NCBI GenBank assembly: GCA_030430575.1
Contig: JAUIKF010000049.1
Span: forward strand, 1 to 64,000
Length of the DNA stretch: 64,000 nt
DNA from: Bacteroidia bacterium
Lineage (GTDB): Bacteria; Bacteroidota; Bacteroidia; J057
Direction: 5' to 3'
The notes under the pieces are model-generated. The model ran no database searches. It was given only the letters and a program-made list of their open reading frames with translations, and had not been told where the DNA came from. Shown here in pieces: positions 38,295 through 61,168 of this stretch (position 1 is the stretch's first letter; every line of letters begins with the position of its first letter). The translations under genes were made by a program, and so were the position numbers.

Positions 38295-41294
38295 TTATCG
38301 TTTCACTACTTTCAGCGAAGCACGCTGCACGCCAGCGCTCACCTCAAGCAGGTAATTTCCTGCGGGTAAATGCTCCAGCGAGATGCGCTGCTCGATCTTG
38401 CCTTCGGCAGAAGCCCCGGTCTCATAGCCATATACCCTTTGGCCCAGCATATTGGAAAGCCTGACTTTGTAGGTTTCTCCTGGTAGCGCGTTGGAGACAT
38501 CGATAAAGAGGTCTTCACTAAACGGATTAGGATATGCCTTGAGTCGTAAATCCGTGCTCATGGCATTTTCGCCCAGCCTAGCGGCAATGCCGTTGATGGA
38601 GATGTTGTCAAAGGTCGCTTGACCTGAAGGGCCAGAAGTGGTGCTGAAAAGTACCAGATAAAGCGGACTGCTAAGCAGGTTCGGGCAAGCCATGAGTTGC
38701 GACCAGTTAACACCATCTGCGGAGATATAACCAGTGATCGTGCCTCCCAAACGGTATAGGCGTAGCCAATAAGGCTTGGTGACAGCTGTGCCTGAAGTGC
38801 TCATGGGGAATCCCCCTGTACCTGCACGCATGGTCATCATCGGCACACTGGTGCCTGTCAGCAGCATGGTCGCATGTTTGGCATTGCTAGCGAGACTCTG
38901 GCGCATCATGATGCCCGCTTGATCGTAGTAGCCATTACCCGCAGGGGTGACGTGTGCGCGGAAGTCGATAGCCTGATCCGAGTTAGGAATGGTAATCCCA
39001 CAGAAGTTATCTGCGTTCAGGTTCACATTTCCACCAGCCGACTGGATGGTGAGGCTTTGAGCCGTAGGGTCATAGTTGGTGTGGCAGCCGTTGCCATTGC
39101 CAACGCTGTTGTTGGACCAACCATTGGGCGCGGGGGTTCCAGCTTCTTGCACGGTCACGTCAAAATCACAATGTCCTACATTATTGGCCTTATCTGTGGC
39201 GGTCCAGTTGAAGGTCGTCACACCAACGGCGCAGAAACTACCGCTCAGCGGAAAGCCTGAGATCGTGATTTTGTTGGGTGAATTACAGTTATCTGTGGCT
39301 GTGAGCGCGGGAAAGGTGAAATAGTTGCCTCCGCTATAGGCTGGCACAATAATGGTTGAATCATCGGGGCAGTTACCGAAGACTGGTGCTTCGCGGTCGC
39401 GAATCTTGATGTGATAGCTGCATGTGCTGCTATTGCCAGAGGCGTCTGTGGCCGTCCAGGTCACCAAGGTTTTTCCTTTGGAGAAAACGGCTCCATCCAA
39501 GCTGTTGGATTGGGTGTAGTCATTGATAACTGTAGGCAATTGACAATTGTCAGTAACTATCGGGTCTAAGTCATTTCCAATAGCCAGGTGGTCACACATC
39601 CCTTGGTCCGTGTTCCTTATGACATTCCCTATTGGACAAGCGATGGCAGGGCCTTCGGTATCATTCACCGTGATGGTGAAGCTGCAGGAGGCAGAATTAC
39701 CCGCAGCATCAGTGACGGTGTACGTCTCTGTGTTTACCCCGAGGGTGAAGGTGCCGCCATTGCCCAGACCATTGGTCAATGCTGTAGTTGCACCTGCAAA
39801 ATTATCTGTTCCGACAGGGACGGTATAGTTGACAACTGCGGAGCAGTTGCCGGGATCATTGGGCTGGACAATGTCTTGAGGACAGGCAATGGTGGGAGCA
39901 GTGTTGTCACCAACTGTGACTGTAAACGAACAAGCGTTGGTATTCCCATTCACATCAAATGCTTCAAAAGAGAGGGTATTCCTACCAATAGGGAAATGAT
40001 AGTCTCCCTTTTGGATACCAATAGTATGACGGTAGCCAGCGAATATCTTTTCCCAGTCTGTACCCGTTCCTACTTGAACAGGGCTTCCCTGATCCGTATT
40101 GCTCCCTCCATCACCCAACTGCCCGTAGCGATCAAAGCCCCAAGCCCATAAACTGCCATCTTCCCGAATCCCATAGGATTGGTAACCGCCAGCGTCTATC
40201 GCTACCCAATTGGTGGCCGTGCCTATTTGGCTAGGGGAGCTTTGATTGACTTGGCCTGTACCATTTCCGAGTTGACCATATCGGTCGTTACCCCAAGCCC
40301 ATATCGTTCCATTGGCACGAAGTCCAAGCGAATGGGATCTGTCACTTTGTACCACCCCTGCTGCTGCTATCGCTACCCAGTCGGTTGCACTTCCTACTCT
40401 AGTAGGACTAGGTTTTGTAGAGGTATTGCCCAAGCCTAACTGACCAGAACCACCAAGGCCCCACGCCCAAAGGCTACCATCGTCTTGAATGCCAAATGAA
40501 TGGTAACCACCTGCGGATATTGCTACCCAATTGGTGGCGGTCCCTACCTGCTTAGGACTGTTTCGGTGGGGTTGACTGGGTCCATGTCCGAGTTGGCCGT
40601 GGGTATTATTGCCCCAGGACCATAAGGTCCCATCGGCCCTTAAAGCTAACACATGATAAACACCGGCAGATACTTTCACCCAATTGGTAGCGGTGCCTAT
40701 TTGTACGGGCCAATGTTGATTTGTATTACTTCCGCCATCTCCCAATTGCCCATATAAATCAGACCCCCAGGCCCTAAGGGTTCCGTCTTTACGGATACCA
40801 AGAGAAAATAAATTACCAGCAGCTACGTCAATCCATTCTATCCCAAGGGCTAAAGGGATAGGGCGATTTTTTTGAGGATTGGTCCCAGGCCCATCTCCTA
40901 TTTCACCACGAGAATCACTTCCCCATGCCCATAAAGAACCGTCCGTTTGAATTCCAAGTGAATGGGTAAATCCAGCTGCAATTGTCATCCAATTCGTAGC
41001 ACTCCCCACAGAGACAGGGCTATGTTGGTTAGCACTTCCTCCCCCAACGCCTAATCGGCCTCCGCTACCATTCCCCCATGCCCAAAGGCTTCTGGGGGGA
41101 GTGATCCCTACAGTTTGTTTGATCCCAATAAAGGCATCCGATGAAGTGGCGCAGAGATCGCTGGAGATCGTGGCCATACTTGCAGAAAGGTCTATCTCTA
41201 CCGTGAGATCAGGAAGACAAGTGATGTCTGGAGTCTGCGCAAAAAAGCTACTCCAAGCTAGGAGGCAAGTCAGAAGGCTAAATAATTTTTTCAT
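38295..41294 (-). CDS. T9SS protein with 7-blade RCC1 propeller nested in a HYR domain
   Basis: From ATG 41294 the protein is 999 aa with signal peptide (~1-20). A HYR domain opens (ITCLPDLTVEIDLSASMATI ... GIKQTVG) and is interrupted by seven RCC1 repeats (~residues 70-425; markers LWAWGN...GRLG to LWAWGF...GQLG). It then resumes with FPIGRNTLSFEAFDVNGNTN. Three more HYR-type domains follow (to ~720). Next are a DUF1349-like module (~722-905, with YYDQAGIMMRQSLA) and a Por sorting domain (906-999, YPNPFSEDLFIDV ... LLEVSAGVQRASLKVVK). RCC1 propellers bind proteins or nucleotides in eukaryotes; the ligand here is unknown. A subtype B site pair lies upstream (41467-41498). Confidence 0.92.
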   Translation of the reverse strand: MKKLFSLLTCLLAWSSFFAQTPDITCLPDLTVEIDLSASMATISSDLCATSSDAFIGIKQTVGITPPRSLWAWGNGSGGRLGVGGGSANQHSPVSVGSATNWMTIAAGFTHSLGIQTDGSLWAWGSDSRGEIGDGPGTNPQKNRPIPLALGIEWIDVAAGNLFSLGIRKDGTLRAWGSDLYGQLGDGGSNTNQHWPVQIGTATNWVKVSAGVYHVLALRADGTLWSWGNNTHGQLGHGPSQPHRNSPKQVGTATNWVAISAGGYHSFGIQDDGSLWAWGLGGSGQLGLGNTSTKPSPTRVGSATDWVAIAAAGVVQSDRSHSLGLRANGTIWAWGNDRYGQLGNGTGQVNQSSPSQIGTATNWVAIDAGGYQSYGIREDGSLWAWGFDRYGQLGDGGSNTDQGSPVQVGTGTDWEKIFAGYRHTIGIQKGDYHFPIGRNTLSFEAFDVNGNTNACSFTVTVGDNTAPTIACPQDIVQPNDPGNCSAVVNYTVPVGTDNFAGATTALTNGLGNGGTFTLGVNTETYTVTDAAGNSASCSFTITVNDTEGPAIACPIGNVIRNTDQGMCDHLAIGNDLDPIVTDNCQLPTVINDYTQSNSLDGAVFSKGKTLVTWTATDASGNSSTCSYHIKIRDREAPVFGNCPDDSTIIVPAYSGGNYFTFPALTATDNCNSPNKITISGFPLSGSFCAVGVTTFNWTATDKANNVGHCDFDVTVQEAGTPAPNGWSNNSVGNGNGCHTNYDPTAQSLTIQSAGGNVNLNADNFCGITIPNSDQAIDFRAHVTPAGNGYYDQAGIMMRQSLASNAKHATMLLTGTSVPMMTMRAGTGGFPMSTSGTAVTKPYWLRLYRLGGTITGYISADGVNWSQLMACPNLLSSPLYLVLFSTTSGPSGQATFDNISINGIAARLGENAMSTDLRLKAYPNPFSEDLFIDVSNALPGETYKVRLSNMLGQRVYGYETGASAEGKIEQRISLEHLPAGNYLLEVSAGVQRASLKVVKR

Positions 41295-41466
41295 TTTCTT
41301 GTTATTGAGCATGCACCTCACACGATCAAAATGGCCCGCGGTCCAGGTTACAGCAATCCCATCAAGCGATGGGGAATCACTAGCGCATTTTGACGAGGGT
41401 CAATTAGGTGTTATTGATTAATGATGCCTCAATATGGCAGGCGTTCCGCTTATCTCCTAGGATGAG

Positions 41467-41498
41467 TTATCTAGCGGTAGGGAGAGTTATCTAACGGT
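41467..41498 (-). promoter_or_regulatory. Putative LytTR binding site, subtype B, upstream of RCC1 gene
   Basis: TTATCTAGCGGT (41467-41478) and TTATCTAACGGT (41487-41498) are direct repeats 20 bp apart. Read on the minus strand they are ACCGCTAGATAA and ACCGTTAGATAA and point toward the gene starting at 41294 (173 bp away). Spacing and sequence match the pair at 32928-32959. The rest of the 306-bp gap 41295-41600 holds a terminator and a palindrome. Confidence 0.7.
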
Positions 41499-41512
41499 CG
41501 TTTGGTATAAAA

Positions 41513-41532
41513 AAACCGCCCAAAGGCGGTTT
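41513..41532 (-). terminator. Rho-independent terminator of the 2105-aa RCC1 gene
   Basis: AAACCGCC-caaa-GGCGGTTT, followed on the minus strand by a run of T residues, is a standard intrinsic terminator downstream of the stop at 41601. Confidence 0.85.
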
Positions 41533-41537
41533 CATTT

Positions 41538-41587
41538 TGTATTTTGGGGTAGGGTCACGACATGTCGTGACCCTACCCCAAAATACA
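41538..41587. repeat. 50-bp perfect palindrome
   Basis: The core TTGGGGTAGGGTCACGACA is the same as at 38238-38275, here self-complementary over 50 bp. It lies between the stop codon and the terminator of the 2105-aa protein gene. Confidence 0.92.
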
Positions 41588-41600: not shown

Positions 41601-44600
41601 TTATTGTTTCACCACCTTCAGCGCTTTGCGCTGCACGCCAGCACTCACCTCCAGCAGGTAAGTCCCTGCTGCCAGATGTTCCAGCGAAATTCGCTGCTCG
41701 ATCTTGCCAGTCGCCGAGGCCCCCGTCTCATACCCATAGACCCGCTGGCCCAGCATATTGGAAAGCCTGACTTGGTAGATTTCCCCTGGCAGCGCATTGT
41801 CGACTTCGATGAATAGGTTCTCGCTGAAGGGGTTAGGGTAGGCTTTGAGGTTGAGGTCTGTACTCATGGCATTATCGCCCAGCCTTGCGGCCACTCCATT
41901 GATAGAGATGTCAGTGAAAGTCGCTTGACCTGAAGGCCCAGAAGTGGTGCTGAAAAGTACCAGATAAAGAGGCGAACTCAGCAAATTTGGATAGCTCATA
42001 ATAGTTGTCCAATTCACGCCATCGGCGGAAATATAGCCTGTGATGGTGCCTCCCAAACGGTATAGGCGCAGCCAGTAAGGCTTGGTGACAGCTGTACCTG
42101 TGGTACTCATGGGGAATCCGCCTGCGCTGGCGCGCATCGTCATCATCGGCACACTGGTGCCTGTCAGCAGCATGGTGGCATGCTTGGCATTGCTGGCGAG
42201 GCTCTGGCGCATCATGATGCCTGCTTGATCGTAGAAGCCATTGCCAGGAGGGGTCACCCGTGCGCGGAAGTCGATCGCCTGATCGGAGTTGGGGATGGTG
42301 ATCCCGCAGAAGTTGTCAGCCATGAGATTGACGTTTCCACCAGCCGACTGGAGGGTGAGGCTTTGAGCCGTAGGGTCATAGTTGGTGTGGCAACCGTTGC
42401 CATTGCCGACGCTGTTGTTGGACCAACCATTGGGCGCGGGGGTTCCAGCTTCTTGTACGGTCACGTCAAAATTACAATGGCCTACATTATTGGCCTTGTC
42501 GGTGGCTGTCCAGTTGAAGGTGGTGACACCTACGGCGCAGAAGCTCCCACTCAGCGGAAAGCCTGAGATAGTGATTTTGCTGGGCGAATTGCAGTTGTCC
42601 GTGGCCGTAAGGGCCGGAAAGGTGAAATAGCTGCCGCCGCTATAGGCTGGGATGATGATGGTCGAATCATCGGGACAGTTGTCGAAGACAGGTGCCTCGC
42701 GGTCGCGAATGCGAATGTCATAGGTGCACGTAGTGCTATTGCCTGCGGCATCTGTCGCCGTCCAGGTGACGGTGGTTTTGCCTTTAGGCAAGGTAGTTCC
42801 TGCCAGGGTAGCCGTTCCTGAAAGGTCGTTGGTCGCCGTAAAGGAGCAATTGTCTGCGATAGCTGGATCGAGGTCATTGCCGACGGCAATGTGGGCGCAG
42901 GTGCCGAGGTCTGTGTTGCGCTTGATCACGGTTGTGGGGCAAGTGATGCTGGGCGAATCATTGTCCTCGACCGTTACAGTCGCTGTGCATTGGCTGCTAT
43001 TGCTGGCCATATCGCTGACCGTCAGGGTGACAGTATTGCCACCCAAATCCCCACAGCCAAAGCTGCTTTGACTGACAGAAAGGCTCACTGAGCAGTTGTC
43101 GGAAGAACCGTCGTTCACGTCATTTGCTGCAATTGTAGCAGTGCTTCCGTTAAGGCTGACGGTGGCGTCTTGGCAGGAAGCCGTCGGCGCTTCATTGTCT
43201 TCGACCGTTACAGTCGCTGTACACTGGCTGCTATTGCCATCCATATCGCTTACTGTCAGGGTGACGGTATTGCCACCTAGATCTCCACAGCCAAAGCTGC
43301 TTTGACTGACAGAAAGGCTCACTGAGCAGTTGTCGGAAGAACCGTCGTTCACGTCATTTGCTGCAATTGTAGCAGTGCTTCCGTTAAGGCTAACCGTGGC
43401 GTCTTGGCAGGAAGCCGTCGGCGCTTCGTTGTCTTCGACCGTGACGGTCGCGGTGCAAGGGCTGCTATTGCCAGCCATATCGCTGACCGTCAGGGTCACA
43501 GTATTGCCACCCAAATCCCCACAGCCAAAGCTGCTTTGACTGACAGAAAGGCTCACAGAGCAGTTGTCAGAAGAGCCATTGTCAATATCCTGAGCGGTGA
43601 TGCTTGCTGTATTGCCGTTGAGACTGACGGTCGCATCCTGGCAAATAGCCGTAGGCGCTTCATTGTCCTCAACCGTGACGGTGAAGGCGCAGGTGCTGGT
43701 ATTGCCAGCGGCGTCTGTGGCTTCGAAACTCAAGGTATGGGTGCCCGCCAGCAGGTGATAACCCTCAAATCGCAGCCCCAGGCTATGGGATGCCCCTGCC
43801 TGCATGTTTACCCAGTCGGCATCACTACCGATTTGAGCAGGGGTGTAAATAATAGAAGTCCCTGAACCATTTCCCAATTGCCCCGCTCCATCAACCCCCC
43901 AGGCCCAGCGGGTGCCATCGCTTTGGAGTCCTAAAGAATGGTTACTCCCCGCTGCTATAGCAGCCCAATCGGTGTCACTGCCTACCTTGGTAGGCATATT
44001 GGCATTGGAAGTACTGCTTCCTAGCCCTAGTAGACCACTATCATTAGATCCCCACGCCCACAGGCTGCCATCCGCCTGAAGGCCAAGAGAATGCCCCCTG
44101 CTAGCAGCTATTCCAACCCATTGGGTGCCTGATCCCACTTGCTGAGGCATTGGGGCTGAGGTGGTAGTGCCTAAGCCTAAATAGCCATCGGAGAAGAAAT
44201 CCTTTCCCCAAGCCCATAAGGTGCCATTGGCCTTAAGGGCCAGGCAATGGTTTTCACCTCCTGCCACAGCGACCCAGTTGAGGTCACTGCCCACCTGCAC
44301 AGGGCTTGCCTGATCGGGACCTGCCCCAATGCCTAGTTGGCCAGCAACATTACTTCCCCATGCCCACAGGCTGCCATCTGCACGAATGCCATAAGAGGCA
44401 CTACTGCCTGCTGAAATGGCGATCCAATCTGTAGCACTGCCAATTTTGACGGGGCTATATTGATTGCCCGTAGTACTTCCATTTCCCAGTCGTCCACTGA
44501 ATTCATCGCCCCATGCCCAGAGGCTGCTGTCTGCACGGATGCCCAGGGAATGATTCGTACCCGCCGATACGGCGATCCAGTCTGTGAAGGCTCCCACTTG

Positions 44601-47600
44601 TACGGGGGCTGTCTGGTCCATGCTGCTGCCTCCATCTCCTAGCTGACCCTCTTGGTCACTCCCCCAGGCCCAGAGGGTACTGTCGGAGCGAATGCCCAGG
44701 GAATGCGCCTCGCCTGCAGAGATGCTCACCCAATTGGAATCAAGCCCTACCTTGACAGGGCTGTGCTGGGAGGTGCTAGGCAATCCATTTCCCAATTGGC
44801 CTTTGTGGTCCCGTCCCCAGGCCCAGAGGCTCTGGGCGGGCTGGGGGCCTGCGGTCTGGCGGATATACGCGATCCCGCAGTTGTCGGAGGCGGAGGCACT
44901 CAGGTCGCTGTGGACCGTGGCGGCACAGGTGCCAGGGTCAACGTCAACTGTGAGGCTGGGCGGGCAGGTGATGGTGGGCGCTTCGGTGTCTTCGACCGTG
45001 ACGGTGAAGGCGCAGGTGCTGGTATTGCCAGCGGCGTCTGTGGCTTCGAAACTCAAGGTATGGGTGCCCGCCAGCAGGTGATAACCCTCAAATCGCAGCC
45101 CGAGGCTATGGGATGCCCCTGCCTGCATGCTTACCCAGTCGGTATCAAGGCCGATTTGAGCAGGGGTAAAAATAATAGAAGTCCCTGGAACATTTCCCAA
45201 TTGCCCCGCTCCATCAAACCCCCAGGCCCAGCGGGTGCCATCGGTTTGGAGTCCTAAAGAATGGCCCCCCCCCGCTGCTATAGCAGCCCAATCAGTGTCA
45301 CTGCCTACCTGGGTAGGCATATTGGCATTGGAAATACTGCTTCCTAGTCCTAGTCGACCTCTATCATTAGATCCCCACGCCCACAGGCTGCCATCCGCCT
45401 GAAGGCCAAGAGAATGACTCCTGCCAGCAGCTATTCCAACCCATTTGGTGCTTGATCCCACTTGCTGCGGCATTGGGGCAAAGGTGGTAGTGCCTAAGCC
45501 TAAATAGCCTTCGGGGTCGACGTCCCTTCCCCAAGCCCATAAGGTGCCATTGGCCTTAAGGGCCAGGCAATGGAAAAAACCGCCTGCCACAGCGACCCAG
45601 TTGAGGTCACTGCCCACCTGCACAGGGCTTGCCTGATCGGGACCTGCCCCAATGCCTAGTTGGCCAGCACCATTACTTCCCCATGCCCACAGGCTGCCAT
45701 TTGCACGAATGCCATAAGAGGCACTACTGCCTGCTGAAATGGCGATCCAATCTGTAGCACTGCCAATTTTGACGGGGCTATATTGATTGCCCGTAGTACT
45801 TCCATTTCCTAATTGCCCTTGTGCGTCTAATCCCCATGCCCACAGGCTGCTATCGGCACGGATGCCCAGGGAATGAAGCCTACCCGCCGATACGGCGATC
45901 CAGTCTGTGAAGGCTCCCACTTGTACGGGGGCTGTCTGGTCCATGCTGCCGCCTCCATCTCCTAGCTGACCATATTGATCACTCCCCCAGGCCCAGAGGG
46001 TACTGTCGGAGCGAATGCCCAGGGAATGCTCCTCGCCTGCAGAGATGCTCACCCAATTGGAATCAAGCCCTACCTTGACAGGGCTTTCTTGTTGGGTGCT
46101 AGGCATCCCAATTCCCAATTGGCCTTTGTGGTCCAGTCCCCAGGCCCAGAGGCTCTGGGCGGGCTGGGGGCCTGCGATCTGGCGGATATACGCGATCCCG
46201 CAGTTGTCGGAGGCGGTGGCACTCAGGTCGCTGTGGACCGTGGCGGCACAGGTGCCAGGGTCGACGTCAACTGTGAGGCTGGGCGGGCAGGTGATGGTGG
46301 GCGCTTCGGTGTCTTCAACCGTGATGGTCGCTGTGCAGTGACTGCTATTGCCGTCCATGTCACTGACCGTCAGGGTCACAGTATTTCCGCCCAAATCTCC
46401 GCAGCCAAAGCTGCTGGGGCTGACTGAAAGGCTCACAGAGCAGTTGTCAGAAGAGCCATTGTCTACCTTGCTAGCCAGCAAAGAAGCCTTTCCTGTGGCA
46501 TCCAAATAGACAGTTGCATCCTGGCAAGTAGCCGTAGGCGCTTCATTATCTTCGACGGTGACGGTGAAGGAGCAGGAAGCGGTATTTCCATTGCCATCCC
46601 TTGCCTCAAAAGTAAGCGTATTACTGCCAAGGGGGAAGGGATAACCTGCATCTTGGATTCCCAAGGAATGGTTAAATCCAGCTACAATGGCTATCCAATC
46701 GGTGGCTAAGCCCACTTGTACAGGGCTGTTTTGGTCGGTGTTGCTTCCTCCATCCCCGAGTCGCCCCTGGCCGTCGTCTCCCCACGCCCATAGGCTGCTA
46801 TCGGCCTGAATGCCCATAGAATGGTTAGCCCCAGCTATAATGACTACCCAATCGGTGGCTAAGCCTACTCGTACAGGGGTGTTTTGGTTGGTATTTGATC
46901 CTCCATCCCCGAGCTGACCAAACAGATCCCATCCCCATGCCCACAGGCTGCCATCAGCTCGAATGCCCATAGAATGGCTGGCCCCAGCTGCTATGGCTAC
47001 CCAATCCGAGGCTAAGCCCACTCGCACAGGGCTTTTTCTGTTTGTATTGCTTCCTCCATCCCCGAGCCGACCAAAACGATCGTTTCCCCACGCCCACAGG
47101 CTGCCATCGGCCCGAATGCCCATAGAATGGTGCCACCCGGCTGTAATGGCTATCCAATTGGTGGCTAAGCCTACTCGGACAGGTCTGTTTCTGTTTGTAT
47201 TACTTCCTCCATCCCCGAGCTGACCAAACTGATCGCTTCCCCACGCCCACAGGCTGCCATCGGCTCGAATGCCCATAGAATGGTCGCCCCTTGCTGAAAT
47301 GGCTATCCAATCGGTGGCGAAGCCCACTCGTACAGGGGTGCTTTTGTTTGTATTGCTTCCTCCATTCCCGAGCTGACCAAACTCATCGCTTCCCCACGCC
47401 CAAAGGCTGCCATCGGCCCGAATGCCCATAGAATGGTACCTCCCGGCTGAAATGGCTATCCAATCGGTGGCTAAGCCCACTCGTACAGGGCTGTTTTGAT
47501 CTGTATTGCTTCCTCCATCCCCGAGCTGACCAAGCTGATCGCTTCCCCACGCCCACAGGCTGCTATCGGCCCGAATGCCTAAAGAATGGCTGCCCCCTGC

Positions 47601-51100: not shown

Positions 51101-53253
51101 GTACCGCTAGATTTAAGGGCTAGGCAATGGGAACCCCTACCGGTTGATATGGATAGCCAATCCGAATCACTTCCTATTTGCAGGGGTGTTCTTTGTTTCA
51201 CAACAGATTCTATCCCCAACACACCAGCAGTATTTGCTCCCCACGCCCAGAGGGTACCGTTTGAACGAATACCAAAAGAGCAAGTATTACCAGCTTCAAT
51301 ACTTATCCAATCTATAAAACCACCTACCTGAACAGGTATGTCTCGATCGGAATCAGCGCCTCCATCTCCTAATTGTCCCAATTGGTCTCTCCCCCACGCC
51401 CATAAACTGCCATCCGATCGAATACCCAATGAATGGCCCTGACCTGCTGACACTTGCACCCAGTCATTGGCCTGACCCACTTGTACAGGGCTTAACTGGT
51501 TTATATTTGTCCCCCCTATTCCCAACTGTCCATAAGTATTTTGCCCCCATGCCCACAGGGTGCCATCTGCGCGAATGCCGAGGGAATGAAGGGTGCCAGC
51601 AGACACAGAAATCCAACTGGAATCAGTTCCTATCTTTATAGGACTACTTTCAGAAGAATTCGCTATTCCATTGCCGAATACACCGTTCCCCCAAGCCCAC
51701 AAGCTTCCAACTGACTGAACGCCAGCAGGAATTTGCTTGTTTACCACATAGCTACAATTATCAGATGAAGAAACGCTCACGTCACTGTGGAGGGTCGCCA
51801 TACAGTCACCGGGATCAAGGCTGACAGTGATGTCAGGCGGGCAGGTAATGGAGGGGGCTTCAAGGTCTTCGACCGTGAGGGTGAAGGAACAAGTTGCGCT
51901 ATTTCCTCCGGGAATCCTGGCTTCAAAGGTTTGGAGATGTACGCCTTGAGGGAATTCATTTCTTTGTTGAATCCCCAGGTAATGGAATCCTCCGCTGGCG
52001 ATAGCGGACCAGTCTGTGGAGGTGCCTATCTGGGTAGCCCCTACCACTTGGGGCAAGGTACCTTGCCCAGGCTGGTTGCCACCTACTACTAGTAACTGGG
52101 TGGGACCATCTACCCCCCAGGCCCACAGTGTACCATTGGCACGGATGCCAAGGGAATACTGAGAGCCTGCTGCACAGGTTACCCAGTCAGTGTTGGTCCC
52201 TACCTGTATGGGGCTGTTTTGGGAAGAACTTACGCCTCCATCCCCCAGTTGCCCTTCAATTGCCCTGCCCCACGCCCATAGGGTTCCATCCGTCTTTATC
52301 GCTAACGTATGCTCATTGCTTGCAGTCACAAACGCCCAATTATTGGCTGTACCTACTTGTATTGGGGTGTTCTGAGAGACGACATTGCTTCCAATCCCTA
52401 ACATCCCAAACGTATTGGTCCCCCAGGCCCAAAGCGTACCATCGGCCTGGATGCCAAGAGAATGCCTTGAGCCTGCGGTGATGGAGACCCAATTGCTTGC
52501 ACTGCCCACTTGTATAGGACTATTTTGAGAGGTATTTACGGCCCCATTGCCCAGTTGTCCACTCCCATCACTTCCCCAGGCCCATAGGGTTCCATCGGCG
52601 CGAATTCCCAAAGAATGCTCTATGCCACCAGCAACTGCTACCCAATCTGTATGGATACCAATCTTAGTGGGGACGTTTTGACTCGTATTACTCCCCCCAT
52701 CTCCTAATTGTCCTTCACTGTCGTACCCCCAAGCCCACAGGCTTCCGTCGGCACGTATCCCTAATGCGTGGTTACTTCCCCCCTCTACTGTTACCCAATC
52801 ATTATAGGTCCCCACTTGCACAGGTTCCGCTTGGTCCACATTACTCCCTCCATCTCCCAATTGGCCACTAAAGTCATTGCCCCACGCCCACAGGGTCCCA
52901 TCGGAACGGATCCCCAGGGAAAATTCATATCCCGCTGCCACTTTTTTCCAATCTGTCTGCGTCCCAATATGAACCGGATTTATTTGGTCTATTAATAAAC
53001 TACCGTCCCCAACCTGGCCGGTATAGTCTCCGCCCCAGGCCCACAGCTCACGTGGCGGGACGATCCCGTCTGTTTGGCAGATTTGGGCATAATGGTCGCT
53101 TGAAGTAGCACTCAAATCGCTCATGATCGTCGCGACACATGTGCCGGGATCTAATTGTACTGTAAGGGTGGGAGGACAGGTGATTTGAGGAGCCTGAGCT
53201 AAGACAAATTGCCAGGTAAACAAAGCGAGAGAAAAGGCGAGTAATCGTTTCAT
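48169..53253 (-). CDS. Giant T9SS protein with two RCC1 propellers nested in HYR domains
   Basis: The 1694-aa protein has a signal peptide (MKRLLAFSLALFTWQFVLAQ). HYR domain 1 is split by seven RCC1 repeats (~70-428) and closes with FPQGVHLQTFEAR. HYR domain 2 is split by another seven (~518-858) and closes with FPVGIHTLSYMAIDPSGNTD. A series of HYR-like and Ig-like domains follows (~893-1410), then a DUF1349-like module (~1417-1598, YYDQAGIMMRQNIA) and a Por sorting domain (1600-1694). The seventh blade of each propeller is degenerate (VDGPTQLLVVGG; RLFGSSAG), which may be how the ring closes. The promoter region (53329-53401) is shared with the second kinase gene, divergently transcribed. 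Confidence 0.93.
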   Translation of the reverse strand: MKRLLAFSLALFTWQFVLAQAPQITCPPTLTVQLDPGTCVATIMSDLSATSSDHYAQICQTDGIVPPRELWAWGGDYTGQVGDGSLLIDQINPVHIGTQTDWKKVAAGYEFSLGIRSDGTLWAWGNDFSGQLGDGGSNVDQAEPVQVGTYNDWVTVEGGSNHALGIRADGSLWAWGYDSEGQLGDGGSNTSQNVPTKIGIHTDWVAVAGGIEHSLGIRADGTLWAWGSDGSGQLGNGAVNTSQNSPIQVGSASNWVSITAGSRHSLGIQADGTLWAWGTNTFGMLGIGSNVVSQNTPIQVGTANNWAFVTASNEHTLAIKTDGTLWAWGRAIEGQLGDGGVSSSQNSPIQVGTNTDWVTCAAGSQYSLGIRANGTLWAWGVDGPTQLLVVGGNQPGQGTLPQVVGATQIGTSTDWSAIASGGFHYLGIQQRNEFPQGVHLQTFEARIPGGNSATCSFTLTVEDLEAPSITCPPDITVSLDPGDCMATLHSDVSVSSSDNCSYVVNKQIPAGVQSVGSLWAWGNGVFGNGIANSSESSPIKIGTDSSWISVSAGTLHSLGIRADGTLWAWGQNTYGQLGIGGTNINQLSPVQVGQANDWVQVSAGQGHSLGIRSDGSLWAWGRDQLGQLGDGGADSDRDIPVQVGGFIDWISIEAGNTCSFGIRSNGTLWAWGANTAGVLGIESVVKQRTPLQIGSDSDWLSISTGRGSHCLALKSSGTLWAWGDNIKGQLGIGSIVGQENSPVQVGLNGNWIAISAGDKFSLGVQSDGTLWAWGTNNLGQLGLGFGGGQETAPVQVGSATDWIKISGATNHSIGLKADGSLWTWGRLFGSSAGVNIPTQLGNGLNWECTDAFNAFALALQHDGFRFPVGIHTLSYMAIDPSGNTDACSFMVTVEDMTNPIAICQNLTLSLDANGDLTVDANSVDNGSYDDCGSVSFSLSPNTFDCNDMAANPHTVVLTVSDNNGNQASCMANVTVEDNTNPVAICQDVTITLDATGNASVAAISLDNGSNDVCSHVTLSSSRNTFDCNDIATSPHTVTLTAEDNSGNQATCTAHVEVQDNIRPSISCPSNAVLVSDPGVCGASYTIPLPTASDNCSIIETEFRVRESDANGTNGQVIIANTSFNQNHVYLPEARFYEIRWRVTDQGENRKSCHFLVEVQDTESPAAVCQNVTIALDQNGEAFIEGSNVGSSSSDNCGISTYGLSVNTFSCAAIAAPVSVDLTVKDASENLSSCQVSVTVKDLISPSFLCPTTTLRRDADAGNCTHIVNGDDLDPDVSDNCQFTLTNDLTGTATLANTVLPIGRTSLNWTATDASGNSSTCSYDVRIRDREAPLFTNCPPGTTLTVPFGAGGAYHTWAALTATDNCNSPNQLTISGFPLSGSFFPIGTTTVNWTVEDRRGNTSACMFDITVEEQGAPVPNGWAISAVGNTSSCATNWNPTTGHLRIESGGGGVGAFSDNFCSIHIPSSDAVIDFRARVTPPGNGYYDQAGIMMRQNIAANEKHATMMLTGTGIPIMAFRVVAGSNTFSSSRPAVSKPYWLRLYRAGATVTGYISPDGSTWAMVTSSAIFFSNPLDLVLFSATSGPSGQATFDHISINGVAARLGDTSQGMDLSLNAFPNPFNANLAIKLKNALPEATYQLSLLNMLGQEVYAEAVTASAEGKIEKRISLAELPAGTYLLEVSAGVQRQAIKVQKF

Positions 53254-53401: not shown

Positions 53402-53478
53402 ATGGGTTTTTCCTTTCGTGGATTTATGGCTAATTTTCTCAAAACCCCAACATTTCTCTTTTAACTCCCTCACAATTG

Positions 53479-56052
53479 ATGAAAAAGCTATTTCTTTTTT
53501 TTCTCCTCCTATTTGCTTATTTCCAGCCTCAGGCCCAGTCCTATCTCGATTCCCTCTGGACGGTATGGCATACCCCTGTCATGGCCGATACCCATAGGCT
53601 GGACGCCATTCGAAAAATTTGTCAGAAAATAAAATATGGCAAGCCAGATACCTTGCTCGCCACCGCCCAGCTATATTATGATCTGGCCGATAGCCTTGAC
53701 GAGGCAAAACATAAAGGCGTGGCCTTAGGTCATTTAGCCCACTACTTCAATGTGCAAGGAGATTTCTCTCAGGCAATAAGCTACTATCAAGAAAGTTCAA
53801 GCTTCTTCGAAATGGAAGGCTACCAAAAAGGAATTGCTGGGAACCTGATCAATACAGGCAATATCTATTATAGTCAGGGGAAAAATGAAGAGGCAATTGA
53901 GCATTATCATAAAGGGATGGCCATCTGCGAAGCCATTGGAGAAAAAGGATATCTCGCAAATGCCCAACTAAACTTAGCGAATGTTTACAATACGCAGGGG
54001 AATGAAAAAGTAGGCATTGACCTATACCTAAGTGCCCTGAAGCTATATGAAGAAATGGATCACAAACGTGCCATGGTACACCTGCTTAATAGTATAGGCA
54101 GCATGTACACCAATCGAGGCAACGATTCATTGGGACTTTCCTTTTTTTTGCGGGCATTGGCGATAAAAGAGGCAGGAATGGACAAAGCCAGTCGATCTAT
54201 CCTATTGTGCAACATAGGGAAGAATTACATGAGGCGAAAGGAGTACCTTACTGCCCTGGATTACTATCAAAGAGCATTAGAAGATGCAAAAGCAGTTGAC
54301 AGTAAATCGAATGAAGCTTCCAGTCTAAGAGGAATAGGTCGAGCAAGTCTACTTCTGGGCAAGCCTGACACGGCCATTACATATTATAATCGAGCCTTAA
54401 AAATTGAGGAAGAATTTGGAGAAATAAAAGAAAAATCTACTACCCGCAATTTACTGGGAGTTGTTTATCAAAAGAAAGGGAATCACAATTCCGCCATAAA
54501 GCATGCTCGTATTTCATTGACACTTGCACAAGAGGCGGACGCCCCTCTTTATATCAGCAATGCAGCAAAAACCCTTTATAACAGCTATAAAGCCACCAAT
54601 AACTTCCAAAAAGCCCTTGAGATGTACGAACTGCACGAGGAGATGCAGGATACCCTCAAGGGCAGAGATAACGTCCAGGCCCTTATCCGCTTCGAATTTG
54701 AACAGCAGGCCCTCAAAGATAGCCTGGCCCAGGTTGAGCAAACGCTCAATATGCAAATGGCCCATCAGGCCGAACTCCACCAGAAAGACCAGACCCGAAA
54801 CATTCTGGTGGCCATAGGAATCCTGGCGCTGATCCTGGCGCTGGGGTTTTGGGCGCGCAACCGCTTTGTCCAACGCACCAATGCGCAGCTTCAGGCCGCC
54901 AAAGAGCGCGCTGAGCGCTCCGAGCGCTTCAAGGAACAGTTCCTTGCCAATATGAGCCACGAGATTCGCACCCCCATGCACGCCATCTCTGGCATGGTTA
55001 ACATCCTCAAGCGCAATGATCATCCAGCTACGCAAAATGCCTTTCTCGATGCCATGGACACGAGTGCTGATAACCTGCTGGTGCTGCTCAATGATATTCT
55101 GGATTTGTCTAAAGTAGAAGCGGGTAAATTAGAGGTAGAAACCATTCCGATGGCCCCCGCAGAGGTGGTAGACAATGTGTATCAAATTCTCCAATTCAAA
55201 GCAGCGGAAAAAGGATTAAAACTGAATTACCATATCGCTGAGGAAATCCCTCGGTATGTCATAGGCGACCCTACACGCCTCAATCAAATTCTGACAAATC
55301 TGGCGGGTAACGCTATCAAGTTCACCGAGAAGGGCGAAGTCAATATTCGCTTGAAAAGGAAAAGTGATTTCCTGCTCTTTGAGGTTCAGGATACAGGTAT
55401 CGGTATCCCAGAAGACAAGCTCCAAAACATCTTCGATGCTTTTAATCAGGCTGACCGCACTACGACCCGGAACTTTGGGGGCACGGGCCTCGGCCTCAAT
55501 ATCTCCCGCCAGCTCGTAGAGCTGCAGGGGGGAAATATATGGGCAGAAAGTGAGTTGGGCAAAGGGAGTACCTTTTTTGTTTCCCTACCGCTCATTCTGA
55601 TAGAAGGGCAAGAAGTGGCTTCTTCCGTAGTCTCAGAAGCCCAATTGGCGGAAATGACAAATGCCCTCAAGGGCATCAAAGTCCTCATCGCCGATGATAA
55701 CGAATTCAACCAAATGGTCATACAAGATGACTTAGCCTATTACATCCAAGACCCAGTCATTAAGATTGTGCCTAATGGTAAATTGGCAGTTGAGCAATTC
55801 CAACAAACGGATTATGACCTGGTCCTGATGGATATCCAAATGCCTGAAATGGATGGATATGAAGCGACTTTTGAGATTCGGGAGTGGGAGAAAAAACAGG
55901 GGCGCCCGTCCGTTCCCATCATCGCCATGACGGCGAGTGTACTTAAATCAGAGATCAATCTCTGCCTGGAAGTGGGGATGGATAACTACATCCCAAAGCC
56001 TTATAAGGTGGAGGAGCTGATCGGGACAATCTTTAAAGAAACTCAAACCTAA
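53479..56052 (+). CDS. TPR hybrid sensor histidine kinase (module 2)
   Basis: From ATG 53479 the protein is 857 aa (a TTG codon directly before it is in frame). It is a paralogue of the kinase at 33020: signal peptide (~1-20), TPR repeats (~35-400), membrane helix (ILVAIGILALILALGFWARN, ~445-465) and a coiled coil. HisKA carries phospho-His494 in MSHEIRTPMHAISGM, then HATPase_c (LAGNAIKFTEKG, DTGIGIPEDKL, FGGTGLGLNIS). A receiver domain has Asp785 in VLMDIQMPEMDG and Lys in IPKPYK. It is followed by an HPt gene and a LytTR gene on the same strand. It probably senses an envelope signal and drives the divergent propeller-protein gene and itself. Confidence 0.95.
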   Translation: MKKLFLFFLLLFAYFQPQAQSYLDSLWTVWHTPVMADTHRLDAIRKICQKIKYGKPDTLLATAQLYYDLADSLDEAKHKGVALGHLAHYFNVQGDFSQAISYYQESSSFFEMEGYQKGIAGNLINTGNIYYSQGKNEEAIEHYHKGMAICEAIGEKGYLANAQLNLANVYNTQGNEKVGIDLYLSALKLYEEMDHKRAMVHLLNSIGSMYTNRGNDSLGLSFFLRALAIKEAGMDKASRSILLCNIGKNYMRRKEYLTALDYYQRALEDAKAVDSKSNEASSLRGIGRASLLLGKPDTAITYYNRALKIEEEFGEIKEKSTTRNLLGVVYQKKGNHNSAIKHARISLTLAQEADAPLYISNAAKTLYNSYKATNNFQKALEMYELHEEMQDTLKGRDNVQALIRFEFEQQALKDSLAQVEQTLNMQMAHQAELHQKDQTRNILVAIGILALILALGFWARNRFVQRTNAQLQAAKERAERSERFKEQFLANMSHEIRTPMHAISGMVNILKRNDHPATQNAFLDAMDTSADNLLVLLNDILDLSKVEAGKLEVETIPMAPAEVVDNVYQILQFKAAEKGLKLNYHIAEEIPRYVIGDPTRLNQILTNLAGNAIKFTEKGEVNIRLKRKSDFLLFEVQDTGIGIPEDKLQNIFDAFNQADRTTTRNFGGTGLGLNISRQLVELQGGNIWAESELGKGSTFFVSLPLILIEGQEVASSVVSEAQLAEMTNALKGIKVLIADDNEFNQMVIQDDLAYYIQDPVIKIVPNGKLAVEQFQQTDYDLVLMDIQMPEMDGYEATFEIREWEKKQGRPSVPIIAMTASVLKSEINLCLEVGMDNYIPKPYKVEELIGTIFKETQT

Positions 56053-56552: not shown

Positions 56553-57314
56553 ATGCAAGCTGAGACCATCACCTGCCTCATCATAGATGACGATCCATTT
56601 ATTCGGGAATTATTGCGAGATAAAATAGAACAATACCTGCCTGATGTGAGCATCTTAGGCACGGCGAGTAGTGGAAAAGAAGGGTTAGAAAAAATAAAGT
56701 TCCACACCCCAGAATTAGTTTTCTTGGATGTAGAAATGGATGATATGACGGGATTTGAAATGCTATCGAAATTAAAGGATATCCCCTTTCAGATCATTTT
56801 TATCACGGCCTTTAGCCATTATGCCATCAAAGCTATTCGCTTCAATGCCCTTGACTACCTCGTCAAACCCATTGACCTGGGTGAGCTCAGGTCCGCTGTC
56901 AGACGCTACAAGTCGCGCAAAAAAGAGGCGCCCAAAGCAAACCCCATCCACCAGGCCTTGATCAACCTCAAAATCCCCAATGCTTCGGATCAAACCTTAG
57001 TGCTGCACACGCAGGAAGGAGAATTGAAATTGGTCCTAAATCAGATCATTCGCATAGAAGGTGAGCGCAATTACAGTGTGATTCATCTGGGAGACGGCAA
57101 GAAAAAACTAGCAACCAAAACGCTAGGAGAAATGGAAGAGATTCTTTCAGACAAAGGTTTTTTCCGCTGCCATAAATCACATGTGATCAATATTCATCAC
57201 ATCAAATCCTTCCATACCAGCAACGTCATCCTGTTAACGGGAGATACCCCTATTCCCATCTCTCGCCGCAAGAAAGAGGCGTTTCATTCGTGGTATAATG
57301 CTGCAGCATCGTAG
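56553..57314 (+). CDS. LytTR-family response regulator (module 2)
   Basis: The 253-aa protein has a receiver domain (residues ~7-125: CLIIDDDPF, Asp in LVFLDVEMDDMTG, Lys in YLVKPIDLGEL) and a LytTR DNA-binding domain (~150-250: IRIEGERNYSVIHLGDGKKK; GFFRCHKSHVINIHHIKSF). It is a close paralogue of the module 1 regulator. Its stop codon lies inside a 40-bp REP palindrome (57305-57344), which therefore codes the last two or three residues. It is the expected output of kinase 2 and the candidate binder of the ACCGTTNGAT sites at 47994-48066 and 53329-53401. Confidence 0.95.
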   Translation: MQAETITCLIIDDDPFIRELLRDKIEQYLPDVSILGTASSGKEGLEKIKFHTPELVFLDVEMDDMTGFEMLSKLKDIPFQIIFITAFSHYAIKAIRFNALDYLVKPIDLGELRSAVRRYKSRKKEAPKANPIHQALINLKIPNASDQTLVLHTQEGELKLVLNQIIRIEGERNYSVIHLGDGKKKLATKTLGEMEEILSDKGFFRCHKSHVINIHHIKSFHTSNVILLTGDTPIPISRRKKEAFHSWYNAAAS

Positions 57315-57358: not shown

Positions 57359-60300
57359 TCACCGCTTCACGACCTTGACGCGCTTGTGGGTGTCGCCAGC
57401 ATGGACCTCCAAAAAATAAATGCCTGCGGCTATTTTGGAGGTGTTGATCACCGCTGTAGAGACGTTGGAATCCAACGTCTCTACAGCGGTGATCACGACA
57501 CGACCTGTCAGGTCCAGTAGGGACACACGATATTGTGTACCTATGCCTTCGCCTTCCAGGCGATATTCCAGGCGATCCCTAAAGGGATTGGGGTGGCATC
57601 GTAGAGATGCGATGAATTGCGTCTCTACGATGCCTGTCTTTAATGGCGAACCATTGATGGTGATATGGTCAAAGGTAGCTGTGCCCGTAGCACCGCTCGT
57701 GATGGAGAAGAGGCAGAGGTAGAGCGGATTGGTCAGGACATTGGGGTAGTTTTGGATAAATGTCCAGGAGATGCCATCTGCTGAGACGTAGCCCGAAATG
57801 ATGCCCCCAATTCGATAGAGGCGTAGCCAGTAGGGTTTACTAACAGTGGCCCCTGCGGTGGCCAAAGTAAAGCCACCTGTTGTCGTCCGTGTGCTCATGA
57901 TTGGTAAGGCTGTACCAGTGAGGGCCATGCTAGTATGTTTGCTATTGCTTGTAAGGGCTTGGCGCATCATGATGCCTGCCTGCTCGTAGTAGCCTGCGCC
58001 TGGAGGATTGACACGTGCCCGGAAGTCTATGATGGCGTCATTGCTAGGAAAGCTGACAACCGCCAGGTTATCGGATTGATTGCCAAGCGAGCCACCGCTG
58101 CTGAGGATCGTTAGGGTGCCGGTTTGGGGGTTCCAGTTGGTTTGGGCCGTGACGCCTGTACCGATGATCTGGGCGGTGCCTCCCGGTGGAGTGGGATCTC
58201 CCTCCTCGTCCACGGTCACCGTAAAGTCGCAAACGGCTGAGTTGCCAGCTCTGTCGGTGATGGTCACGGAAACTACTGTGCTCCCTAGTGGGAAAAAGCT
58301 CCCATTCAGCGGAAAGCTGGCGTATGTCAGTCTTGAAGGACTGTTGCAGTTATCTGTGGCCACAGGATTAGGCCAGGTGACATATTCGCCTGACGAGGGG
58401 AAAGGCACGGTGATATGTTGGTCAGACGGACAGTTGCTGATGACGGGGGCTTCGCGGTCACGGATTCGGATGTCATAGGTACAGGCATTGCTGTTTCCCA
58501 TCACATCTACTAATGTCCAGGTGACCGTGGTTCTGCCTTTGGGCAAAGTCGTTCCTGCTAAGGTATGGGTCCCTGAGACATCATTGACGACCAGCGCGAG
58601 CTGGCAGTGGTCGGGGATGCCAGGATCAAGGTCCTGGCAGGAAACGAGGTAACTGCAAGTGCCTCCGTTGGTATTTTGTCGGATGGTGGAAGTAGGACAA
58701 ATAAAACTTGGAATCGAATAAGGTACGGTGATGTTCGTTGAGCACGTTGTCATATTTCCGCTAGGGTCTGTGGCTTGATAAGTCAGGGTATTTGTACCAA
58801 AGGGGAATTTATAGCCTTCATTTTGAAGGCCAAGGCTGTGCCCCCCGCCCGTCTCAATGTCCACCCAATTGGTCTCAACTCCTATTTGCATCGGACTTGT
58901 TTGATCTCCTTCTTTTGCCCCATTTCCCAATTGCCCAATCGCGTCTGTTCCCCAGCTCCATAAAGTACCATTTTCTTTGATTCCCATCGTTTGTGCTTCT
59001 CCGGCAGAGACTTCTTTCCAGTCCAAATCAGTGCCTACCTGTACAGGGCTGTTTTGATTCGTATTTGTGCCTCCATCTCCCAATTCACCATTAGCATCAA
59101 AACCCCAAGCCCATAAACTTCCATCTGCTTTAATCGCAGTTGAATGATATCTCCCTGCTGAAATTTCCCTCCAGTCTGTGGCGCTGCCAATTTGGATAGG
59201 GCTTAGTTGCTTGCTAAAGGCATTCATAGGACTTCCATCTCCTAATTGGCCTCTGCCCCCACTTCCCCAGGCCCAGAGCGTGCCATCAGTTTGCAAGCCA
59301 AGAGAATGCTCGAGGCCGCCATCAATCGCTACCCAGTTGGTCACGCTTCCTACCTGAACCGGACTGCTTTGATCCATCTCGCTTCCTCCATCTCCTAAGG
59401 CCCCAAAAACATCTCTCCCCCAGGCCCATAAGGTTCCATTTGACCGAATCCCAAATGATCGAAAACTACCCGCACCAATAGCAATCCAATCAGTATCGGT
59501 CCCTATTTGGATCGGAATCACCCGATTTTCATTACTTCCACCATCTCCCAATTGGCCATTAGAATCGCTCCCCCAAGCCCAAATAGTCCCATCGGACTGT
59601 AAGGCCAATGAGTGGGCAGAGCCACAAGCTATCTCCACCCAACTAGTGCTGGAGCCGATTTGAACAGGAGCATTCTCCTCATCGTTACTTCCGCCATCTC
59701 CCAATTGGCCAGAAGTATTATGTCCCCAGGCCCAGAGGGTTCCGTCAGCTTTTATGCCCAAATTGTGATTCCCGCCAGCAGCAATTTTCATCCAATCAAT
59801 ATCCCCTTCAACGGGTAGGGGGCTGTTTTCGGACTCGTTTTCATCAGAGTTACCCACTTGCCCACTGCCATCATCTCCCCATCCCCAAAGGGCACCACTG
59901 GTGCGAATCCCTAAGGAGTGGCTTGAAAAATTCTTGCCAGTTGCAATAAACTTCCAGTCCCGATCGCATCCTACGCGTACCGGGCTGTCCTGCTGTACAT
60001 TTCCTCCCCCATCTCCCAGTTGGCCATCAAGATCTCCCCCCCAGGACCAAAGGCTTCCATCTCTCATGCCTAAGGAGAAAAAGGGTCCTCCTACAATGGT
60101 ATCCCAATCGCTTTCTAATCCTACCCTCGTTGGGATGGATTTATTTGCTTGACCTGGGCCCATGCCCAACTGTCCCTGATTGTCCAATCCCCAGGCCCAC
60201 AGACTTCCGTCTGTTTTTATCCCCATGGAGTGCCCACCCCCTGTGGCAATAATGTGCCAGGTGCTATCTGTACCAATTTGAACAGGGCTGCTTTGATCTA

Positions 60301-61168
60301 TATTTAATCCACCATCTCCTAAGCTGCCATTAGCATCCCGGCCCCAGGCCCACAAGGTCCCATCGGCTTTTAATCCTAAGGCATGTGCCCCACCCGTAGA
60401 TACAGCTACCCAATCGGTATCAGTGCCTATTTGAACAGGACTATCCTGGTTCATATCGGCTCCCCCATCTCCCAGCGCACCAAACATATCGCTTCCCCAC
60501 CCCCAAAGGGTCCCATTTGCCCGAATCCCAAATGAATGATCTTCGCTTGCAGAAATCACTTCCCAATCCGTCCAAGTGCCGATCTGTACGGGTATAAGCT
60601 GGTTCGTATTGGTACCTCCATCGCCAAGTTGTCCGACATTGTCCTCTCCCCAGGCCCACAAAGTGCCGTCGGTACGAATCCCCAGCGAATGCTGGCCTCC
60701 TGCTTGTACGATATGCCAGTCTGAATCACAGCCTATCTGTCTTGGGGAGCCATTGCGTCCCGGATAGCTGGGGTCACCCATCTGGCCTACCTGGTTGATT
60801 CCCCATCCCCATAAGGTGCCATCTTCTTTGATGCCGAGGCTATGATTAGACCCTCCTGTGACCATGCGCCAGTCTTGATCTACCCCAGCCCTGACAGGAC
60901 TGAATTGGTCTTCGAAATCTCCTCCTGCTCCCAACTGGCCAAATTCGTCCCATCCCCAGGACCAGGCGCTGTGGTCGGGTTGGATACCAGCAGTTTGGGC
61001 AATGCGGCTAAACGCGTCAGTAGAAGTCGCGCTGAGATCACTCATGACGGTAGAGACGCAGGCATTGGCGTCTAAAGTCACGGTGACGCTGGGTAAACAA
61101 GAGATAGTTTGAGCAGACAATGTGCTGCATACGCATGCAATGAGTAAAAAAATAGTAAGTTTTTTCAT
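57359..61168 (-). CDS. T9SS protein with 14 tandem RCC1 repeats nested in a HYR domain
   Basis: The 1269-aa protein has a signal peptide (~1-19). A HYR domain opens with SCLPSVTVTLDANACVSTVM ... AQTAG and is interrupted by 14 RCC1 repeats (~67-780), twice the usual seven. It closes with FPFGTNTLTYQATDPSGNMT. Two more HYR-type domains (to ~987), a DUF1349-like module (~993-1175, YYEQAGIMMRQALT) and a Por sorting domain (~1190-1269, CHPNPFRDRLEYRL ... GIYFLEVHAGDTHKRVKVVK) follow. Two REP-type palindromes lie inside the C-terminal coding part. It is convergent with the LytTR gene of module 2 and encodes the fourth nested-propeller protein of the window. Confidence 0.92.
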   Translation of the reverse strand: MKKLTIFLLIACVCSTLSAQTISCLPSVTVTLDANACVSTVMSDLSATSTDAFSRIAQTAGIQPDHSAWSWGWDEFGQLGAGGDFEDQFSPVRAGVDQDWRMVTGGSNHSLGIKEDGTLWGWGINQVGQMGDPSYPGRNGSPRQIGCDSDWHIVQAGGQHSLGIRTDGTLWAWGEDNVGQLGDGGTNTNQLIPVQIGTWTDWEVISASEDHSFGIRANGTLWGWGSDMFGALGDGGADMNQDSPVQIGTDTDWVAVSTGGAHALGLKADGTLWAWGRDANGSLGDGGLNIDQSSPVQIGTDSTWHIIATGGGHSMGIKTDGSLWAWGLDNQGQLGMGPGQANKSIPTRVGLESDWDTIVGGPFFSLGMRDGSLWSWGGDLDGQLGDGGGNVQQDSPVRVGCDRDWKFIATGKNFSSHSLGIRTSGALWGWGDDGSGQVGNSDENESENSPLPVEGDIDWMKIAAGGNHNLGIKADGTLWAWGHNTSGQLGDGGSNDEENAPVQIGSSTSWVEIACGSAHSLALQSDGTIWAWGSDSNGQLGDGGSNENRVIPIQIGTDTDWIAIGAGSFRSFGIRSNGTLWAWGRDVFGALGDGGSEMDQSSPVQVGSVTNWVAIDGGLEHSLGLQTDGTLWAWGSGGRGQLGDGSPMNAFSKQLSPIQIGSATDWREISAGRYHSTAIKADGSLWAWGFDANGELGDGGTNTNQNSPVQVGTDLDWKEVSAGEAQTMGIKENGTLWSWGTDAIGQLGNGAKEGDQTSPMQIGVETNWVDIETGGGHSLGLQNEGYKFPFGTNTLTYQATDPSGNMTTCSTNITVPYSIPSFICPTSTIRQNTNGGTCSYLVSCQDLDPGIPDHCQLALVVNDVSGTHTLAGTTLPKGRTTVTWTLVDVMGNSNACTYDIRIRDREAPVISNCPSDQHITVPFPSSGEYVTWPNPVATDNCNSPSRLTYASFPLNGSFFPLGSTVVSVTITDRAGNSAVCDFTVTVDEEGDPTPPGGTAQIIGTGVTAQTNWNPQTGTLTILSSGGSLGNQSDNLAVVSFPSNDAIIDFRARVNPPGAGYYEQAGIMMRQALTSNSKHTSMALTGTALPIMSTRTTTGGFTLATAGATVSKPYWLRLYRIGGIISGYVSADGISWTFIQNYPNVLTNPLYLCLFSITSGATGTATFDHITINGSPLKTGIVETQFIASLRCHPNPFRDRLEYRLEGEGIGTQYRVSLLDLTGRVVITAVETLDSNVSTAVINTSKIAAGIYFLEVHAGDTHKRVKVVKR
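57445..57495. repeat. 51-nt perfect palindrome inside sorting-domain code
   Basis: The sequence is self-complementary over 51 nt around a single central base (arms gtagagacgttgga / tccaacgtctctac with longer flanks). It encodes VVITAVETLDSNVSTAVIN in the Por domain, the position equivalent to the palindrome at 36066-36116. Confidence 0.92.
57595..57634. repeat. REP-type palindrome inside coding sequence
   Basis: GCATCGTAGAGATGCGATGA pairs with the following half (two wobble pairs only). It is the same family as the intergenic palindrome at 57305-57344. It codes the linker between the DUF1349-like module and the sorting domain (GIVETQFIASLRCH). Confidence 0.88.

Follow-up and report, generated by a model that had tools for sequence, protein, structure and literature searches.

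Predicted RCC1 rings nested in split HYR domains of four putative type IX surface proteins from a Bacteroidia bacterium

According to two accounts, the split domains of RTX adhesins are fibre beta-sandwiches interrupted by a ligand-binding domain, the ends of which lie together while its binding site is farthest from the junction (PMC12077191, PMC10865825). The locus described here resembles such adhesins (AhLap, FrhA, MpIBP) in that a putative fibre sandwich domain appears, by sequence, to be interrupted by a guest domain. It was found in a window of 64,000 nucleotides, the whole stretch of DNA analysed (contig JAUIKF010000049.1 of the Bacteroidia bacterium assembly GCA_030430575.1), and comprised four genes, all on the minus strand, at positions 38295-41321, 41601-47918, 48169-53253 and 57359-61168, with translated lengths of 1008, 2105, 1694 and 1269 residues, respectively. 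The host halves, like their many intact neighbours, were HYR (hyalin repeat) domains (PF02494), and the guests were rings of RCC1 repeats.

Nesting of RCC1 rings within single HYR domains was well supported by comparison of the sequences. As the initial annotation had claimed, RCC1 repeats stood between two HYR halves in all four proteins, giving seven split HYR domains (units 1 to 7) with complementary profile halves in every unit. The blade counts given there were also recovered, with seven WxWG-type motifs in six insertions and fourteen in one (7; 7, 7 and 7; 7 and 7; and 14, in gene order), mostly spaced by about 51 residues. On a HYR profile of 75 positions built from intact domains of this genome, the N-terminal flank alone matched within positions 1-41 and the C-terminal flank alone from 45-49 to 75, while the joined flanks covered 1-75 or 2-75 in all seven units, at 43-79 bits versus 27-45 bits for the better half. 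Scores of the N half, the C half and the joined halves were 4, 39 and 44 bits for unit 1; 23, 45 and 71 for unit 2; 33, 40 and 79 for unit 3; 33, 40 and 78 for unit 4; 17, 27 and 43 for unit 5; 29, 39 and 74 for unit 6; and 10, 39 and 45 for unit 7.

When six units and 26 intact HYR domains were aligned without guidance, the intact rows showed a long gap where the units have the ring; it fell after the QT strand and before the SGxxFPxG stretch. In these 26 domains the cut strands were bridged by a short turn, as had been said of ordinary HYR domains, and the 2-4 stray residues of intact rows that the aligner placed inside the ring are compatible with such a turn. For unit 7, the comparison used the N-terminal junction and the two halves joined together. 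The claim of one cut after the QTAG-type strand in all seven cases held for the six aligned units and, by these comparisons, for unit 7, but the FPxG motif said to follow the ring was replaced by LLAG in units 3 and 4. The cysteine of the ITC/ISC motif (N half) and that of the CSF-type motif (C half) were present in all seven units, and the DNC cysteine was absent from four. Among 180 near-full HYR domains of this genome, the first (ITC) and last (CSF) cysteines were found in 94% and 98%, respectively.

All units lay on the minus strand; their halves were placed by profile and alignment (by profile in unit 7) and their rings by Pfam and blade motif count (by motif count and an AlphaFold2 model in unit 4). 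Unit 1 (gene 38295-41321) had its N half at 41100-41225 (weak, 3.9 bits alone), a seven-blade ring at 40008-41099 and its C half at 39912-40007. Gene 41601-47918 encoded unit 2, with the N half at 47724-47849 as the first domain past the signal-like N terminus, the seven-blade ring at 46650-47723 and the C half at 46554-46649; unit 3 (46164-46295, seven blades at 45090-46163, 44994-45089); and unit 4 (44841-44972, seven blades at 43767-44840, 43671-43766). In gene 48169-53253, unit 5 spanned an N half at 53059-53184 (its join below the Pfam cut-off), a seven-blade ring at 51964-53058 and a C half at 51871-51963, and unit 6 the corresponding features at 51715-51849, 50671-51714 (seven blades) and 50575-50670. 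Unit 7 (gene 57359-61168) comprised an N half at 60974-61105 (weak, 10.1 bits alone), fourteen blades at 58823-60973, interpreted as two rings in series, and a C half at 58724-58822.

AlphaFold2 was run on an alignment of the six units, and the model for unit 4 (434 residues, 983-1416 of the 2105-residue protein) reached a predicted local distance difference test score (pLDDT) of 86 and a predicted template modelling score (pTM) of 0.84. Residues 45-402 aligned to solved RCC1-like rings, best to HERC2 RLD2 (Z 51.8, root-mean-square deviation 1.6, 352 residues, 28% identity), a fold shared with UVR8, RCC1 and the bacterial BLIP-II. Since the ring was complete within these residues, neither flank belongs to it, and the 44 and 32 residues left outside are together the size of one HYR domain. 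The fourteen blades of unit 7 probably form two such rings in series. Duplication of a whole ring was rejected as their source, similarity at an offset of seven blades not being raised (13 of the 14 blades detected).

Packing of the host was modelled on another guest of this genome, the L040 unit, which carries a 136-residue guest without a Pfam name; its alignment consisted of one relative and 40 rows of intact HYR domains. The host segments were predicted at block pLDDT 90-98, the guest poorly, and the overall pTM was 0.47. In every row among the 50 matches listed, 64-73 residues spanning positions 1 to 214 of the model aligned to single immunoglobulin-like (Ig-like) domains, with staphylococcal SraP at Z 6.3 and the Aureispira grappling hook protein at Z 6.0 among them. 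A sequence search for solved HYR structures returned weak Ig-like matches only, the best again being SraP (E 1.1e-4). By extension from these models, the two HYR halves would pack as one sandwich in the seven window units.

A competing explanation denies that the flanks make up one domain: the N flank would be a short linker or a small domain in its own right, and the C flank the remnant of a HYR domain. Several results count in its favour and against nesting. In units 1 and 7, the N half taken alone reached only 4 and 10 bits, respectively, on the genome's own profile. The expectation of the initial annotation that joined halves would score as a HYR domain, with neither flank complete by itself, was borne out on that profile (joins full-length in 7/7 units, each flank partial) and in part only with Pfam HYR (cut-off 21.7 bits), against which six distinct joins were compared, unit 3 being omitted as near-identical to unit 4. 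Three joins matched over nearly the full domain (39.5, 42.1 and 39.0 bits), two exceeded the cut-off with the C part alone matched (29.6 and 30.4 bits), and that of unit 5 fell below it (14.5 bits); the C half of unit 4 passed by itself (27.5 bits), its N half alone giving no match. The host halves of the unit 4 model stood at block pLDDT 65-84 only. The L040 matches reached just Z 5.4-6.3, a level rated common, at a pTM of 0.47, and the intact HYR rows in that alignment favour a one-domain outcome, so that the model makes the arrangement possible without demonstrating that it occurs. Because the seven window units are paralogues, their common cut site does not represent seven independent events. 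The rival explanation is nonetheless opposed by the complementary profile ranges, found in the seven units and equally in the flanks of seven other guests of this genome, by the register of intact domains with both flanks in the unguided alignment, and by the joint alignment of the L040 host segments to single Ig-like domains, low Z and intact-row bias included. Overall, separate flanks appeared highly improbable.

Variability in the nested rings was concentrated at a few positions of the blade. Entropies of about 3.5 to 3.8 bits were calculated over the 56 blades for positions 5, 7 and 8, which follow WAWG, and for 39 and 40, between AG and HSLG; their neighbours were mostly conserved. This gives five positions per blade and 35 per ring. 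The same five were the most variable when units 3 and 4 were omitted. Propeller loops alternate between two faces. In the unit 4 model the strands of the second blade covered residues 100-104, 120-126, 132-137 and 141-146, and the loops after strands 1 and 3 hold all five positions, which would therefore fall on one face, with the ring ends on the opposite one. By this strand order, the variable face is predicted to lie opposite the ring ends.

Units 3 and 4, tandem copies with 93.7% DNA identity, differed disproportionately at these positions. Residue differences affected 19 of the 35 variable positions, 24 of the 323 positions in the rest of the ring and two of the 76 in the host halves. The proportion of nonsynonymous differences (pN) was 0.376 at variable positions, versus an overall proportion of synonymous differences (pS) of 0.075, and the ratio of nonsynonymous to synonymous rates (dN/dS) was 0.33 in the host and 0.45 in the remainder of the ring. 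Of the changed codons, 11 of 19 at variable positions differed at two or three bases, compared with 6 of 44 elsewhere. Three orthologous Chryseobacterium proteins with un-nested rings served as control, their sites being chosen by motif; rates at variable sites versus the silent rate were 0.126 versus 0.220, 0.122 versus 0.227 and 0.003 versus 0.029. Among the pairs compared, only units 3 and 4 exceeded the silent rate. This excess would be accounted for by selection favouring change on one face, with block conversion between blades possibly supplying the variants. A diversity-generating reverse transcriptase was set aside as the cause, the single RVT_1 match of the genome lying on another contig and the changed codons not being adenine-directed by eye.

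Some observations temper this picture of a specially diversified face. Blade position 21 was nearly as variable (3.46 bits, or 3.11 with units 3 and 4 omitted). Of the three Chryseobacterium pairs, the two diverged ones showed about twice as much change at the variable sites as at other positions, so that part of the variability at these positions is common to such rings in general. Neighbouring variable sites changed in blocks by blade conversion may also lessen the statistical significance of the excess.

The nested rings could instead be mere spacers or stalk elements that lengthen or stiffen the fibre without specific binding. Such a role would suit a giant protein of Chryseobacterium shigense (L134:3628-10824), where un-nested rings and complete domains (FN3-like by eye) follow one another in turn, end to end, in a spacer-like manner, as well as the 14-blade unit, where blades 7 and 8 are spaced by 54 residues without a long linker. 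Against this, the five hypervariable positions per blade stand amid mostly conserved neighbours and pN far exceeds pS between units 3 and 4; moreover, an insertion attached at two points would set the ring off to the side of the fibre axis. A pure spacer therefore appeared unlikely. Alternatively, the rings could bind one another or their own matrix and serve assembly instead of recognition of a foreign target. In favour of this, the four ring genes are clustered, and all 53 RCC1 matches obtained at E 0.001 across the genome (8.16 megabases) fall within them, on this contig. The fast change on the variable face between two copies in one protein points rather to an external target that itself changes; self-binding would nevertheless fit the results, and we regard assembly as a rather improbable function.

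The domain composition of the four proteins was consistent with export and surface attachment. WD40_RLD (PF25390) or RCC1 (PF00415), HYR and a type IX sorting tail were found by Pfam above cut-off in all four, PF25390 in each of them, and TIGR04183 (type A tail of type IX cargo) matched all four C termini at 30-38 bits for a cut-off of 23. The split HYR was the first domain behind a signal-like N terminus (judged by eye) in every protein. Pfam and profile searches of the stretch holding the four genes (38295-61168, minus strand) placed in each protein, besides the C-terminal tail, intact HYR domains and a region that resembles DUF1349 but scores below cut-off. Judging from the sorting tail, the four proteins are probably displayed on the cell surface.

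Taken together, we consider it likely that the four genes encode adhesin-like type IX proteins with a HYR stalk, in which split HYR hosts hold an RCC1 ring as an outward recognition head for a fast-changing ligand. The proteins would be exported by the type IX system and kept at the cell surface, their HYR domains building an Ig-like stalk of which seven domains act as split hosts. The chain would make the first HYR half, exit at the turn between the QTAG and FPxG strands, fold into a complete seven-blade ring (probably two in series in one case), then re-enter and complete the HYR domain. With the ring ends on the host-side face, the opposite face, bearing the 35 hypervariable positions, would be directed away from the stalk. 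Ligand binding by the ring would follow from this arrangement and its variability, the putative ligand being one that changes quickly, e.g., a surface molecule of another cell.

Several neighbouring genes were encoded on the plus strand. Two histidine kinases with TPR and receiver domains and a LytTR response regulator were found at 53476-56052, 56553-57314 and 32981-35617, two of these regulatory genes falling between adhesin genes inside 38295-61168. Located between and beside the adhesin genes, they may control them. The divergent neighbour at 61414-63999 encoded an M12B-type metallopeptidase combined with HYR domains.

Split HYR domains in this genome also harbored guests other than RCC1 rings. 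A LamG-type lectin (PF13385) was found as guest in two proteins, a DUF4082-like guest was weakly matched (22.0 bits for a cut-off of 28.4), and three more proteins displayed guests without a Pfam name, the Pfam output placing the best stretch only, so that a further P_proprotein stretch of the L040 protein may extend to its guest. A third copy of an unnamed split-HYR guest was observed at L039 (G000:C121, minus strand), broken over the open reading frames (ORFs) 3892-5331 and 2401-3888 by either a real frameshift or an assembly fault. At L041:1003-3171, about residues 296-460, a guest appeared to sit right after the first HYR cysteine and before the VDNDPG stretch; this position would be a further insertion site, the half-match being too short to score.

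The cuts fell into the middle of the HYR domain. An automatic split scan of the fetched stretches counted 16 splits, seven-blade rings occupying seven of them, alongside 227 intact HYR domains. Units 1 and 7 were missed because of their low N-half scores and were added by hand, giving 18 splits. When no cut position was preset, all 15 splits detected fell at profile positions 29-47 of 75, in a scan blind to cuts very close to either domain end. The HYR list is a lower bound, with 150 of 302 candidates scored and chosen stretches of the genomes G000, G001 and G005 covered. By the letters at the joints, two cut sites were distinguished: most non-RCC1 guests and the ring of G005 lay just after the DNC motif, and the rings of the window and of G001 one strand later.

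Among 21 other genomes of the order, an RCC1 ring in a split HYR was found in two, G001 (same genus) and G005, both of the same family as the window genome. The G001 ring occupied the same turn as those of the window; this genome also harbored a guest related to one of the window genome (57% identity over the whole unit) and another unnamed guest. In G005, the ring (G005:C1, L198, ORF 6158-14164, residues 1395-1843) lay in a HYR domain just after the DNC motif, flanked on both sides by Gly/Ser-rich stretches, in contrast to the tight joints of the window units. It went unlisted by the position-free scan, its half-matches overlapping (1-52 and 32-75). As its joined halves scored less than the C part alone (31.6 versus 34.3 bits on the genome-derived profile), which tells against nesting there, the G005 case rests on half-matches and position.

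Within the stretches covered, the rings of G014, G019, G020 and G007 (same order) were without HYR matches, and the 10 kb covered around the ring proteins of G044 and of G007 (a member of the same family) contained no HYR match. A survey of RCC1 relatives covered 79 named loci (the best 80 of 283) and four G001 loci, and none of its 103 ORFs with at least four blades displayed HYR halves on both sides of the ring; L122 showed weak HYR C-part matches ahead of its ring. In G001, RCC1 blades also reached two contig ends (G001:C29 and G001:C57; L196 and L197), with visible flanks that were not HYR halves; these ring pieces may belong to opposite ends of a single gene that the assembly has broken in two. 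In a quick tree of 94 rings, from which the G005 ring was absent, window and same-genus rings grouped loosely with open forks, so that no number of ring insertions follows from it. Of the 296 phylum genomes surveyed, three besides the window genome contained a relative of the L040 guest. Two of these outside relatives lay near the N terminus after a signal-like stretch, without a HYR match in the part covered, which indicates that this guest can stand on its own; the third (L220) was not legible as an open frame.

A broader reading is slightly favoured, in which HYR would be a general socket in this bacterial family: two neighbouring mid-sandwich loops would have repeatedly taken unrelated guests, i.e., RCC1 rings (probably twice), the LamG-type lectin, the DUF4082-like domain and several unnamed ones. 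The RCC1 version, as a type IX counterpart of split-domain adhesins, would then be a rapidly diversifying recognition ring with its variable face away from the stalk. If HYR is such a socket, guests between HYR halves become candidate ligand-binding domains in type IX surface proteins, in parallel to RTX adhesins, where emerging from a split domain already flags ligand-binding guests. Profile annotation gives RCC1 and half a HYR, overlooking the nesting. The unit 3 and unit 4 pair offers binding studies a concrete set of 35 residues, which we infer to lie on one face.

The literature searched, with subscription papers mostly outside it, yielded no paper joining a HYR domain with RCC1 or with domain insertion and none on a beta-propeller inserted in a hyalin repeat or on HYR domains in Saprospiraceae. 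Rings of the window share their fold with known RCC1-like rings, and differ from the un-nested rings of C. shigense, strung together with complete domains, in lying inside an Ig-like domain. Compared with RTX adhesins, which use type I secretion and carry as guests carbohydrate-binding, RTX beta-roll, PA14, peptide- and sugar-binding domains, the window proteins have a type IX tail and an RCC1 ring as guest. In FrhA a single strand precedes the guest, whereas the HYR host is cut near mid-domain. No RTX repeat family was listed at E 0.01 in the four proteins, and a T1SS_rpt_143 match in one of them was far below cut-off (28.5 versus 66.05). Given the type IX tail and the lack of an RTX repeat family, the four proteins are not RTX adhesins, although they would work in a similar way. 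Split Ig-like hosts having already been described in the latter, the HYR host with its RCC1 ring would be the addition made here.

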